Part shown: positions 6,797-26,519 of the stretch, piece by piece | How positions within the stretch are numbered: position 1 is the first letter of the stretch | How the letters are laid out: each line of letters starts with the position of its first letter | Source: Marvania coccoides | Taxonomy: Eukaryota; Chlorophyta; Trebouxiophyceae; Chlorellales; Chlorellaceae | DNA length: 64,000 nt | Assembly: GCA_963854735.1 (NCBI GenBank) | Contig: OY978098.1 | Coordinates: forward strand, 826,001 to 890,000 | Direction of reading: 5' to 3' | The notes under the pieces: generated by a model | What the model saw: the letters and a program-made list of their open reading frames with translations, nothing else | Database searches by the model: none | Told to the model about the DNA's origin: nothing | Made by a program: the position numbers and the translations under genes

Positions 6797-9700
6797 TCAC
6801 GCCACCGCCACGTGCCCGCCGCAGCTAGGAGCGCCGCAGCAGCACGCCAGCACCTCGTCGCCGTCCTTGAAGAAGTAGCGCGCACCTGAAATATACACAA
6901 AAAATGGGGTCGGCGGTGGCGTATCAATTATTAACGCATAACCTTCAATTGCCGAGTGTAAAATATGCATGGGGTTGAAGTAAAACATGGGTAGTACGCT
7001 GCTGTGCCCCGCACCGTAGTTGTAACACAGCTCTGTGCCAGCTTCAACGTCTCGCGAGGCCACAAAGGCGATGCGGTAGGCCAGGGCGCTGCACCCGCGT
7101 GTCAGCACGGGCTGCACGATCATGTTGGGCTCACAGGAGTGGTTAAAGAACCTCCCGATGTTGCTGCTCCTCTCCGCGTCCACCACCAAGTGTTCAACAT
7201 CGGCAGCGTCAGGCACAGCCAACCCGCGCGCAAACGCTGGCATGGGGGGCAGCGCCTCGTTCTGGTCGGCGTCGTGGTGCATCACGATGAAGTGGTCCAG
7301 ATCGAAGAGGTACGCGTTGTGGCTGCGGCGCTCTTCCTACGCAATTGTTATTTTGGGGGGAGAGGGGGGGGGGTTAGTAAAGGCCGAGAATAGATTTAAT
7401 TTTGCTTCATTTATTGAGATGTGTTAAATTGGAAGATGCCTTGTTTATTGTTTTATTCCCACTCACCGCTTCCATGTTGGTGATGAGCTCGCCTTCGTAC
7501 GTCGCCACCACTTGGCCAGCGCAGAGGTCTCGGGCGCAACGCACCCCCCACCCGCGCCCCACCGTGCGAAACACCTCCAGCGGCAGCGCCAGGCCGCGGG
7601 TCACCACGCTGTTGCCAGCGCAGGCCCCGCCGCCGCGGCAGGCTGCCCCGCCACAGCACTCCCACACCCCCGCTGCTTCGCTGGCCCTCAGCAGCCCCGT
7701 TTCGTTGTAGTACGCCCGCGCCTGATCCTGCCCCGCCTCAGGTGCGCCAGGCCGCACCACTGGCAGCCGTCTGGCATCGCCGCAGCACTGGCCGCTGCGA
7801 TGGCTTGCGCCTCCGCCGAGCCGTGCACCGCCGATTCCCGCACGTACCGCAGGTCCTCAGGCAGCATGGCACCGTCCCCCGTGGCGTTGAACACCGGAAT
7901 AGGCCAGGTTTCAGCGCCGTGGGTGATGTCTTCGCAGATCAACCCCGGCTTGGTGCGGGCCAACGCCGTGAAGGCCTCAGGCGTGAGATCCGGCTCTCGC
8001 GGGGCTGCAGGCGCCTTTCGCTTCTTGGACTTGCGGGAGGCGGAGGCGGAGGCGGCTGCGCGGCGGCGGGGGCGGGGCCCGCTTCCTGCCAGCTGCATGC
8101 TTTTGAAGCCGCGCAAGGACATGAAGGTGACCTTCTTGGAGGCCTTGTAGTGCCCCGGGAGCCCCACCAGCGTGAAGCGGCACACCTGGAAGCCCCTAAT
8201 GCCGGGCACCAGCTCGGCAGCCACCACTGGAAGAAAGAGGGAATTGAGGGATGAGTGAAATGACCTAAGGAAGAAAGGAAGGAAGAAAGACCACCGATTG
8301 CACCCGGAGAGGGGTGAATAACGAGCTTCGGGCGAGCTGCGTCGTTCTCAGGGAGGAGCAGATGCAGCTGAGCGGTCGAGAAAATAAAATCGCTGCAACA
8401 ACAATAAAATTGAAATTTAAACTCACCAACGTACAGCCCGTCGTAGGTGTAGCTGAACTCCTTGGTGTCCGCGTTCTCCTGCCCCCGCATCACCCTCACA
8501 GGCACCCCCATCTCGCAGTTGCGCTGCAGCGCCGCGTTGTTGTCGTCCTTGAAGCTCTGGTCCTGGGCCTGCTCAACCCCGCCCACCCTGCCCCCCACGC
8601 CAGTGTAATACAGCCAGTCCCCGTGATCATCATCGTCCTGGTACTTCCCGCTGAGCACGATGGCGTAAGCAGGCTTGCCTTTAATGGAGTCTATTCCCCG
8701 GAAGTATTGATGGTGGGCCCCCGCCAGCCACAGCTCCGCCCGCCCCCCAAACGGTCACCCGGCACCACCCCAGGCGGGTGTCCGTGCTGCTTGTCCCACG
8801 TGGGCCACTCCTCGTTGCGCTCTTGCAGTGCCTTCACAGCCTTCATGTCAGGCTTGGCGCGCACGATCTTCTTCTGCCGCTCCAGCTCCGCGCGGAACAG
8901 CGCCAGCCGCCCCTGCGCCTCCTCCGCGTCCTCCGCCGACACCTGCGCCTGCCCGGCGTAGTCTGCCAGCGTGTGCGAGGGGAGTCTTGCGCGCAGCTGC
9001 TGCAGTACGATCAGCGGGTTAGGAGCGGCGGCAGTAGGGGCGGCGGCGGGGGTAGAGGCGGCGCCTGAGGGCCCAGCGGCGGCGTTTTTGAGGGAATCCA
9101 GCATCTCCTCCATGACAACAGCAACGGGGGTGGCGGGAAAAGCGTTATTGCGCTCCTCTTCTGCTGCTGCTGCTGTTGGAAGGAGCGCAGGGTCGGCTGC
9201 AGTGGCAGCGTCTCGCATGGGACCATCATCTTCTCCTCGAAGTGGTTCTGCGGCGGGGGTTTCCGCCGCCGTTTCTGCCTCGTCTTCTTTTTTATCCATG
9301 GCAGCTTCTTGCAGCAGCGGCTCTGGCGAGGGAGGGCTTGCCGCTTCCTCGTTTTCCTCCCCCACCTCCGTAGGAGCAGCTGCTGCCTCTGAGGGCGGCT
9401 CGGCAGGGCCCCTTTGAGGGTCGGTTGGCATCTCCAGCTGCCCAGCAGCAGCTGCTGCTGCTGCATTTGTCAGGTGCTCTCTAGAGCTCGAGACGAAGAG
9501 AGCGAGATCCAGCACTGTGGCCGCCTCCGGAACAGCCGCAGCTGCAGCAGCGTTCTCACCCCCGCCGTCGATGTGGCCAGCTGCGCCAGCTGCCGCCCCG
9601 GCCGCAGGGCTATGAGCAGTAGTGCCACCCTCCATGGGTAGTAACGCCTGGTACAGATCGAAGAAAGGCGGCCCCATGGGCGCCGCTGAGGGCTCCATGA

Positions 9701-20329: not shown

Positions 20330-20420
20330 TGCCCAGGGGGGAGTGCCCTTGGGAGATCGTGTAAAGGCGGGCATATGAAAAAAGGCGGCGGGGTGGTCGT
20401 GGGAATTCTCAAAAACGCTC

Positions 20421-20536
20421 CCTAAGAATTTCTTAGGAAAAACCTTACTGTCACAGGTTGCGGGGAACTTGTTGCATTCCACTAAGAAATTATTTCTTAG
20501 GAAACAGAGTTTCCTAAGGTAACTTTCTTAGGAAAA
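20421..20536. repeat. Cluster of TTCTTAGG palindromes
   Basis: CCTAAGAA-T-TTCTTAGG (20421-20437), CTAAGAAA-TTA-TTTCTTAG (about 20483-20501) and TTTCCTAAG...CTTAGGAAA (about 20510-20535) are three hairpin-forming palindromes of one motif within 120 bp. Possibly MITE-like remnants. Confidence 0.7.
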
Positions 20537-20604
20537 CGGCGTTGAGGCGGCGGTAGTGGACCCTGCTTTAAACAAAGTAATCATCCAACTTCCTACCTGG
20601 AAAA

Positions 20605-20691
20605 TCGTGCTTCATTCTGAGCGCAGGTTCGAGTCCTGTCACCTGTACAAAAGTGCAGGTGTGGCCGAGCGGTTAAGGCGGCACGTTCAGG
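20605..20691 (+). tRNA. Circularly permuted tRNA-Leu(CAG) gene
   Basis: The 3' half comes first (20605-20647) and the 5' half second (20655-20691), with a 7-base linker between. Joining 20691 to 20605 gives a complete class II tRNA: acceptor GCAGGTG/CACCTGT, D-arm GCC/GGC, anticodon stem GCACG/CGTGC, loop with CAG, variable arm TCA-TTC-TGA, T-arm GCAGG/CCTGT with loop TTCGAGT, and discriminator A73 as expected for Leu. The internal promoter boxes are therefore in reverse order: B box GGTTCGAGTCC at 20626-20636 before A box TGGCCGAGCGG at 20662-20672. The junction lies at 37/38, the nuclear tRNA intron site. CAGGT (20688-20692) can pair with ACCTG (20595-20599), giving a bulge-helix-bulge-like splice site. 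Processing would need tRNA endonuclease and ligase, making a circular intermediate. Confidence 0.88.
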
Positions 20692-20699
20692 TCATTATA

Positions 20700-20705
20700 T
20701 TTTTT
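20700..20705 (+). terminator. RNA polymerase III terminator of the permuted tRNA gene
   Basis: Six T residues eight bases after the end of the 5' half, where a pol III stop is expected. Confidence 0.75.
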
Positions 20706-20729
20706 GCTACTTTTAACTTTTTTTTTTAA

Positions 20730-20798
20730 AGTTCAAGTCCTGTCACCTGTACAATTTAAGCGCAGGTGTGGCCGAGCGGTTAAGGCGGCACGTTCAGG
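20730..20798 (+). pseudogene. Degenerate second copy of the permuted tRNA-Leu
   Basis: The same order recurs: T-arm remnant AGTTCAAGTCCTGT, acceptor CACCTGT and A (20730-20751), linker, then an intact 5' half (20762-20798) ending at TTCAGG. The 3' half has lost the anticodon-stem strand CGTGC and the variable arm, which are replaced by T/A-rich sequence, and its T-stem no longer pairs. T5 at 20804-20808 could stop pol III. It is unlikely to give a working tRNA alone. Confidence 0.7.
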
Positions 20799-21054
20799 TC
20801 AACTTTTTGCTACTTTTAAACTTCAGCGCCTGCCCCCCTTGACCTTCTCCTCGCTCCAACATGTTGTTCAACATACGTTTGCTCGTTTGCCAATCGTCAG
20901 GCAGCAGATGGGCTGCATTTTTCGGTCGTGATGTTGGAATCTAAAATCCAATCGCAAGATTTCGAGCAAAACGCGAATTTGTATGCGCACGATGAACTTG
21001 TTCGGCACATTTCCAGAGGTTGTGGCTTGTTTTCCGCCTTAGATCCCATCCAAA

Positions 21055-22062
21055 ATGCGAGACGCGCTGATGTCAAAGCAGGTAGAAAGTCACTTTCAAA
21101 GTGTACTTCTGCTCGATGTCCAACTTTTTTTTCTGTTTTTGAAAAGTAGGCAAAACTACAAACGTTTGGCTGCCACTACCAGTAAAACACTGAATAGAAT
21201 TTTCTCAGATGACACCACCCTGGCCACCACCCACTCCACCGGTCTAGACAGGCACTCCCTCATGCTTACAAACACCTCAATCCCGCAACGCTTAAAAAGC
21301 TTGACCTGCAAAATCCGACTCAATCGCTTATTTACACGCGCTCGATTGCACATATTAAAACCGCTAACAGTGGCCGCTTCATGCCCTCTTTGCACCCACG
21401 GAAATGAAACCCAGGGACATGTACTAGGCGGATGCCAACACACAATTATTCATGGCATGGTCTGCAAAAGACACGGCAAAGCAGTTGCAATCATTGCAAA
21501 AGCCATACAAAAAGGCCCCAATGGTAACTTCCAACTATTTATGGATGCTGAAACAGTAGAACACTCCCTACCAGCCCTCCCACAATGGTTCCCCTCTGCC
21601 CCCACGGAAGTCCGGACAAAGCCTGACATCATATTCTTCCCGGCAATCCCTTCCGAATTCCTGTGCACAGAAACTGATCAACTCGCCCAAGATAAAAAAG
21701 TGGTATGGTTCATAGAAGTTGGATTCACAGGGGATGGATATATATACGACAAAATGACAACAAAATCTCAACAGCACGCCCCATATGCAGCATGGTTGCA
21801 TACCCAAGGATACAGACAGTTCGCACTTACACAATCCTCATTACCTACTCTGGCTGCATCACACACCCTGACGACAAAGCTGCTTACAGACTGTGGCCTC
21901 AACCACACAGAAATTTCATCCACAGTACGTAAAATCCACAGCCTCACAGCCAACTACAATAGCAGCTTAATATCCACTCGAAGACACCTGACCTCTCGCC
22001 TCCCTCATGCCCCCCTACTTCCACCTCCACCCCCACCTGCCCCAGCATCAGGGATCGGCTAA
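21055..22062 (+). mobile_element. 3' end of a non-LTR retrotransposon: zinc knuckle plus restriction-like endonuclease
   Basis: The open frame to 22062 has a C-x2-C-x9-H-x4-C knuckle (CPLCTHGNETQGHVLGGC) followed by KRHGKAVAIIAKAI, typical of the region just after reverse transcriptase in R2-like and related elements. It is followed by a nuclease pattern: KPDIIFF, then VVWFIEVGFTGD, then Lys and an HAPYAAW helix, as in restriction-like endonuclease domains. The reverse transcriptase itself is absent, so the element is 5'-truncated around 21140, as is common for non-LTR elements. Coding is A/C-rich with low GC, unlike neighbouring host genes. It lies about 330 bp after the tRNA-Leu repeats. 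Confidence 0.7.
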
Positions 22063-25443: not shown

Positions 25444-26519
25444 GGCTGAAATGGCTGTTTGCGCGACTCCGTGCGTTATTAATACGTCCAAAGTGTTGCC
25501 GAAAGCTCTAATTCCTCAAAAAGTCTCAAGGATTGCGTTAGTTAAAGCAATTCTGCGATACAACCACTACGCAACGCCGCCAAGATAAGCTGAGCCGAGC
25601 CGACGGCAGGCCCGCACCGTAGACAATTGATTCTAGATTTGAAACAAAGAGAAAAAATAGCTTTTTCTGCAGCTGCCGATCGCCATCTGCGGCTAAATTT
25701 CTTCATATATTTTCAAGGAAAGAAAATGGTGGCGCCTTTGACTTTCTTTTTAACTGTCTTTATGATTTATTTGAAGGATTCTCGAGGGAATCAAGCGGCA
25801 TGGCAAATTCTCTTCAAGGGCTTCAGGGGTCGCGCAGGGCCTGCGCGTTTGCGTAGTTTTTTTTCTTTCCATGTGCCCAGTGCACTCCGAGGATAATTAA
25901 GCTCGTCTTGTTTTTCGAAAATCAAAGAGTTCACAGGGGAAGTTATTATAGTTAAAGAGTTCACAGGGGAAGTCTCAAATTGGATCCCCAAACCCTCGCA
26001 TTGTATCAGCTGTCCCGCCGGCCCCGAGCATGTCTCTCTCTGATACAGCCTATAGCGTTCAGAGAACACCCTACCGCCTTCACTTCCAAATCAAAAGATA
26101 ATATCTAACGGGCAAAAGTCAAACTATGCAATCAAATCGAACCTTCCGGCCCCTAGCAAAAAAATGCCCGTAAGAAAAAGGAAAAACACTATGTCTGCCA
26201 GGGAGTAAAAGTATTCGCATTTCTTCCAGCTGGATAGCGATGCTTTTAGACCGAGAGGTCGGCTTTTTCTCTACTGAATACTTGTCGCAGCAATAAAGCT
26301 GAGCCTCGCGTGCGTCCCAGTTGCTGCATGCCCTTTCTTTCCTACGCAGCCCCTACAGATGTCTTGGTCCTTACTGATAAGCTGGTTATGAAGAATGCGA
26401 CGATGTTAATTTGCAAGTGCAAGTATTAAATCCTCGCACCGCCAAGCAAAGGTCTTCGCATCAGAGAGGCAGGTAACTCTTTCTGCAATGGATCAGAAAA
26501 CCGCATGCCCTGCCCTCCG
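25444..26519. other. Spacer with repeats
   Basis: No gene was recognised. It has a family B repeat (25872-25905), a 20-bp direct repeat AAAGAGTTCACAGGGGAAGT twice (about 25924-25972), and a 36-bp stretch from CAAATTGGATCC (25976) that recurs with few changes at about 23745 in a bestrophin intron. Confidence 0.55.

Follow-up and report, generated by a model that had tools for sequence, protein, structure and literature searches.

The nuclear genome of Marvania coccoides CCAP 251/1B (Trebouxiophyceae; assembly ucMarCocc1.1, GCA_963854735.1) very probably contains a functional type II (37/38) circularly permuted tRNA-Leu(CAG) gene, a reading to which we assign a probability of roughly 0.88. The gene was located in a 64,000-nucleotide stretch of chromosome 2, termed the window. 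As the original prediction had stated, the 3' half precedes the 5' half, and a 7-base linker lies between them (Table 1). At least 15 well-formed permuted tRNA genes were found in the genome, against 17 in ordinary order, in a partial survey directed at 37/38 joints. Permuted tRNA genes are already known; what is new here is the species and the extent.

Table 1. Features of the tRNA-Leu(CAG) locus; positions are those of the window.
Feature	Position	Strand	Evidence
3' half of tRNA-Leu(CAG), positions 38-73, discriminator A at 20647	20605..20647	+	Sequence, ARAGORN, rule-based finder
7-nt linker CAAAAGT between the halves	20648..20654	+	Sequence
5' half of tRNA-Leu(CAG), positions 1-37, anticodon CAG at 20688-20690	20655..20691	+	Sequence, ARAGORN, rule-based finder
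B box (T arm), upstream of the A box	20626..20636	+	Pattern match G000:C2:846626-846636
A box (D arm), downstream of the B box	20662..20673	+	Pattern match G000:C2:846662-846673
Leader ACCTGGA, can pair with TTCAGGT (20686-20692) across the junction	20595..20601	+	Duplex −8.7 kcal/mol
T6 run then GC, likely Pol III terminator, begins at the ninth base past the 5' half	20700..20705	+	Sequence; T-run count over the permuted set
Second, truncated copy of the permuted Leu(CAG) unit	20731..20801	+	Repeat comparison, covariance model R1
T5 run of the second copy, within 16 nt that exactly match the first terminator region	20804..20808	+	Repeat comparison

Joining of the outer ends of the two halves gave a tRNA-Leu(CAG) of 80 nt, which was accepted by ARAGORN with a score of 120.4. 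A tRNA finder run on the rearranged sequence, one of the checks proposed with the original prediction, thus returned the predicted class II leucine tRNA with a CAG anticodon and discriminator A. The acceptor stem of the rejoined molecule comprised 7/7 pairs (including a G1.U72 wobble), the anticodon stem 5/5 and the T stem 5/5; the D stem comprised three pairs with the fourth position unpaired, and the variable region was 12 nt long. The joint was consistent with the predicted break at 37/38; T occupies both +1 and position 38, which leaves the exact cut uncertain by one base. The B box stands ahead of the A box, so the boxes are reversed as predicted. Without rearrangement, ARAGORN reported 0 genes in the window, with and without introns, and 0 matches to Rfam were obtained at gathering thresholds. 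In the order of its halves, its completeness on rejoining, its 37/38 junction and the placement of its T-stretch, the locus corresponds to a type II permuted gene. When folded as a circle, the linker can add two pairs, giving a 9-bp acceptor hairpin with an AAAA loop.

Chance matches were assessed by a circle scan, in which the window was divided into 106,501 overlapping segments of five lengths at a step of 3, and each segment was closed as a circle and submitted to ARAGORN. Fifteen segments gave a tRNA, and every one of these starts between 20500 and 20699. The label was Leu(CAG) in 5/15; the other 10 carried different labels, as would be expected of circles closed at a wrong place. Two Markov-generated controls gave 3 false matches each per 106,501 segments.

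Two covariance models were also used. R1, which included the Leu(CAG) copy, scored this gene at 55.4 bits. R2 was built from eight other permuted genes with Leu(CAG) left out. Rejection by covariance models had been named beforehand as evidence against the gene; R2 still found it, at 42.4 bits (E 5e-11), in an alignment that begins at 20612 and, beside the long variable arm, puts the 3' strand of the anticodon stem in the wrong place. R2 also matched tRNA-dense organellar DNA, where 22 loci, some overlapping, gave 67 matches at E <= 1; the highest score, 38.8 bits, fell on two plastid tRNAs in tandem (L012). An R2 match alone is therefore no proof of permutation. Permutation at Leu(CAG) is shown by the missing outer halves together with the pairing of the two halves that are present. 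A weak R1 match at 25542-25630(−), 13.3 bits, and an A-box match at 7507-7518(−) were read by eye and rejected as containing no tRNA.

The genome searched comprised 22.46 Mb in 15 contigs, with a plastid contig of 99,873 bp and a mitochondrial contig of 49,038 bp. Its plastid atpA shares 99% identity with that of Marvania geminata. Searching with RF00005 gave at least 62 matches, of which 9 were nuclear and all in ordinary order, with 63 of 454 candidates scored; this scoring overlooked at least one nuclear gene without an intron, Ala-AGC, which was detected afterwards. As so few candidates had been scored, T-arm (B-box) sites were searched instead. The pattern GGTTCRANYCC gave 86 nuclear sites among the 100 matches listed of 132, and these 86 were covered in full, 6 as ordinary genes already known and the other 80 as loci. 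AGTTCRANYCT gave 98 nuclear sites among the 100 matches listed of 105; of these, 3 belonged to genes already known and 61 were fetched, while the other 34 (31 having C at position 59 and 3 being subtelomeric) were left out. In the window and loci L048-L127 (81 sources), 37/38 joints were sought with a rule-based finder that required at least 6/7 acceptor pairs and at least 4/5 anticodon-stem pairs and was followed by an ARAGORN check, by which one finder row (L121, minus strand) was rejected and left out. Loci L128-L187 were assessed by R1, ARAGORN and reading by eye. R1, R2 and the finder detect 37/38 joints only, T-loop joints would break the B-box pattern, and matches to other box patterns were counted only; the permuted total is thus a lower bound.

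The finder returned 14 distinct permuted genes: Leu-CAG, Gly-GCC, Thr-CGT, Glu-CTC, Arg-TCG, Arg-CCT, Ser-GCT, Asn-GTT, Phe-GAA, Ala-CGC, Thr-TGT, Arg-CCG, Ile-AAT and Arg-TCT. The fifteenth, Ala-TGC at L158, was read by eye and its join checked. Linkers in the 15 genes were 6, 6, 6, 6, 7, 8, 8, 16, 21, 43, 51, 54, 56, 85 and 111 nt long. The acceptor stem was paired 7/7 in 15/15 and the anticodon stem 5/5 in 14/15. Stem pairs averaged 11.9 of 12, compared with 5.6 for halves exchanged between genes, and this high pairing is partly due to selection, because the finder thresholds required it. Three further loci scored as permuted, L066 1487-1569 (+), L110 242-316 (−) and L146 103-185 (−), at 45.7, 32.9 and 26.4 bits, respectively. 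A full cloverleaf could not be written for these and they were excluded from the 15; perhaps they contain an extra intron or have decayed.

The genes in ordinary order were the nine from RF00005 (Val-TAC, Gln-CTG, Met-CAT, Gly-TCC, Glu-TTC, Cys-GCA, Asp-GTC, Lys-CTT and Thr-AGT) and Arg-ACG, Ser-TGA, Ser-CGA, Ile-TAT, Pro-TGG, Ala-AGC, His-GTG and Pro-CGG. Introns were present in 10/17. Anticodons that this survey recovered in neither order include iMet, Trp, Tyr, further Leu anticodons, Val-AAC/CAC, Lys-TTT, Gln-TTG and Ser-AGA. Seven loci in ordinary order (L080, L105, L111, L115, L132, L179 and L187) have introns 9-95 nt long in the anticodon loop. Three of these, L080, L111 and L115, were first labelled Thr-tgt, Gly-ccc and Ser-tga by ARAGORN; with introns removed following a reading by eye, they were labelled Ser-TGA, Ser-CGA and Ile-TAT, respectively, and one of two intron cuts at L080 gave no clear anticodon. 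No resolved anticodon was common to the 15 permuted and 17 ordinary genes of this partial survey, and under the first ARAGORN label for L080, Thr-TGT would stand in both sets. An ordinary tRNA-Leu(CAG), whose presence the original prediction had proposed to check, was found neither among the 17 ordinary genes nor by a BLAST search of the M. coccoides genome with the permuted gene, which returned only the gene itself and the truncated copy. As the genome survey was incomplete, the description of Leu(CAG) as the only copy rests on this one BLAST search and the patterns searched.

The predicted pol III T-run follows the 5' half, and the linker contains no T-run. T4+ was found within 20 nt past the 5' half in 14/14 readable permuted genes, against 9% of window 20-mers, and T4+G in 13/14 permuted trailers against 3% of background; 13/16 ordinary genes had T4+ (Pro-CGG was left out of this count). 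Ala(TGC), which has no readable trailer, stands outside the terminator, leader/trailer and remnant counts. T-runs played no part in the selection of permuted genes, and their occurrence past the 5' half in every readable case therefore indicates that the swapped order is the transcription unit. In 1/15 genes, permuted Thr-TGT, the linker has TTTT at its end, where transcription might stop early. As a separate observation, T4+ followed by G was common to both sets of genes, with T4+GC in 8/14 permuted genes and in 10/16 ordinary ones, compared with 0.9% of 20-mers from the window.

Upstream promoter sequences were tested as TATAWA and TATA strings. Within 60 nt upstream, TATAWA was found in 0/15 permuted genes (2.4% background) and TATA in 3/15 (7.8% background). 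No convincing 6-mer was shared among the upstream regions of the permuted genes. For some green algal permuted genes, the upstream element is described in a 2014 review as ambiguous AT-richness only (PMC3978253), and for this reason a TATA-like element was not taken as defining. Protein family searches of the genome gave one match to the TFIIIC B-block subunit family (PF04182), two tRNA-intron endonuclease loci (PF01974) and three matching pieces of the RtcB ligase family at one place.

Pairing of leader and trailer, from which a bulge-helix-bulge had been predicted, is possible in the Leu(CAG) sequence. There the two can form a 7-bp helix with the energy given in Table 1 and without a second bulge. 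Over 14 genes, the mean for own leader/trailer pairs was −5.3 kcal/mol against −4.6 kcal/mol for mismatched pairs, a difference without significance (p = 0.11), so that the bulge-helix-bulge step is weakly supported across the set.

The second copy was defined by the repeat pairs 20627-20650 / 20731-20754, 20651-20694 / 20758-20801 and 20701-20716 / 20804-20819. Similarity begins at the T loop, and the 5' half at 20762-20798 is identical to the first. In the R1 alignment, non-standard pairs make up 3/5 of the T stem and 2/5 of the anticodon stem, and the remaining pairs use the T-run; both stems are largely broken. A comparable arrangement was found at L100 (G000:C6:846828-847428), where permuted Ala(CGC) is followed head-to-tail by a second 5' half with a T-run, 63/65 nt identical. 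Since the Leu(CAG) and Ala(CGC) repeats extend past the T-run, we infer tandem duplication at the DNA level and not copying of a terminated transcript. A general trace of lost outer halves, as a tandem-duplication origin of permutation would leave, was sought over 14 genes and not found. Comparison of the leader with the gene's own 5' half gave p = 0.34, of the trailer with its own 3' half p = 0.66 and of the leader with its own 3' half p = 0.61 (no signal); the value for the trailer and its own 5' half (p = 0.025) was due to Ala(CGC) alone.

An ORF of 335 aa lies at 21055-22062 (+), 0.25 kb downstream of the second copy, and has a weak zf-RVT match (PF13966, E 4e-5, below the curated cut-off); it is perhaps a truncated LINE remnant. 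Near the fetched loci, a LINE-like ORF was found only in the window and in loci overlapping it. Just upstream of the tRNA gene, at 20421-20535, several CTTAGGAAA / TTTCCTAAG words were seen by eye in both orientations. A repeat search over 20380-20900 found no pair of inverted repeats of 14 nt or longer.

Three other explanations of the locus were considered. The swapped halves could belong to a dead, unexpressed pseudogene, rearranged by local duplication and deletion. Such debris does exist locally, since the neighbouring copy at 20731-20801 is plainly broken, but the first copy retains intact stems and is followed by a T-run, and the same build recurs in 14 other genes with different anticodons; we therefore consider a pseudogene unlikely. 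A split tRNA is harder still to accept. In that case, the halves would be used in trans, either with each other or with the 5' half of the second copy, and cis circularisation would not occur. The identical second 5' half at 20762-20798 and the likewise placed second 5' half downstream of Ala(CGC) are what trans use might require. However, no T-run is present in the linker and just 7 nt separate the halves, and among 14 genes only Leu(CAG) and Ala(CGC) have a spare half-like piece within 60 nt either side, so that the other 12 would need one elsewhere. We judge trans use very unlikely.

That two adjacent ordinary tRNA genes, or their remnants, mimic a permutation is an extremely improbable reading and was largely refuted. 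R2 scores tandem plastid tRNAs at up to 38.8 bits and the model alone cannot separate the two arrangements, but ARAGORN, with introns of up to 3000 nt allowed, found 0 ordinary tRNAs in the window and hence no outer halves, and the two halves that are present pair mutually (7/7 and 5/5). A functional permuted gene remains the preferred explanation.

By analogy with other algae, the pathway known for permuted tRNAs would most likely be the mechanism for this gene. Pol III would produce a linear RNA comprising leader, 3' half, linker, 5' half and trailer, ending at the T-run. Leader and trailer would then meet at the anticodon loop and be removed by the tRNA splicing endonuclease, and RtcB or another ligase would join 20691 to 20605 to form a circle. 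RNase P and tRNase Z would open the circle in the acceptor loop with removal of the linker, and CCA would be added last. The resulting tRNA-Leu(CAG) would serve CUG. In three window ORFs this codon accounts for 105/165 leucine codons, more than any other, and tRNA-Leu(CAG) is thus one that the alga should need.

The 2014 review lists 34 permuted tRNA genes in six algae and one archaeon, with a maximum of 11 per species (PMC3978253). According to the same review, 11/43 tRNA genes of Cyanidioschyzon merolae are permuted and four joint positions occur among them; most of these permuted genes are preceded by a TATA-like element, and TFC1/TFC3 homologues were not identified. The C. merolae Leu(CAG) gene is the same isoacceptor with a 37/38 joint, a similar linker (9 bp) and a downstream T-stretch (PMC3978253). 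Unlike the genes of this red alga, those of M. coccoides, in a survey limited to 37/38 joints, lack an upstream TATAWA, and the genome has a TFIIIC B-block match. Ostreococcus, Micromonas and chlorarachniophyte nucleomorphs are reported to have 2 to 6 permuted genes per genome with linkers of 5-64 (PMC3978253, PMC4494063). They share with M. coccoides the green lineage and joints that are nearly all 37/38, whereas M. coccoides has at least 15 genes with linkers of 6-111. Ostreococcus lucimarinus Cys(GCA) has an extra 5' half downstream (PMC3978253), like Ala(CGC) and Leu(CAG) of M. coccoides.

The hosts named with the original prediction, C. merolae and the green lineages above, omitted two others. 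Thermofilum pendens, an archaeon, has permuted tRNAs with swapped halves but differs in its 59/60 joint and encoded CCA (PMC3978253). A 2025 report gives one sentence and a supplementary figure to permuted tRNA genes of Auxenochlorella UTEX 250-A, like M. coccoides a Chlorella-related trebouxiophyte; there, the tRNAscan-SE set was incomplete and the permuted genes were found afterwards (PMC12636532, PMC12633428). We found no literature report of permuted tRNA genes in the genus Marvania. The main text of the M. coccoides assembly paper (PMC11833223), as available, does not contain the word tRNA, and in PMC13353863 the word permuted occurs in the reference list only.

Permuted genes had been described as rare; in this genome they are common. 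The count of at least 15 exceeds the 11 of C. merolae, the largest published number found, with the Auxenochlorella number outside this comparison. M. coccoides is thus an unusually rich genome for studying permuted tRNA genes. The TFIIIC B-block gene and the lack of upstream TATAWA make Pol III use of reversed A and B boxes testable, and the tandem copies at Leu(CAG) and Ala(CGC) are material on how permuted loci change. If the permuted Phe and Asn genes are sole copies, the circular pathway would be essential. A wider proposal, which we offer tentatively and regard as rather doubtful, is that about half of the nuclear tRNA genes of M. coccoides are permuted, each the sole gene for its anticodon, and transcribed without TATA from an internal promoter with reversed B and A boxes and TFIIIC retained. 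If about half are indeed permuted, permutation would be the normal state in this lineage and not a curiosity.
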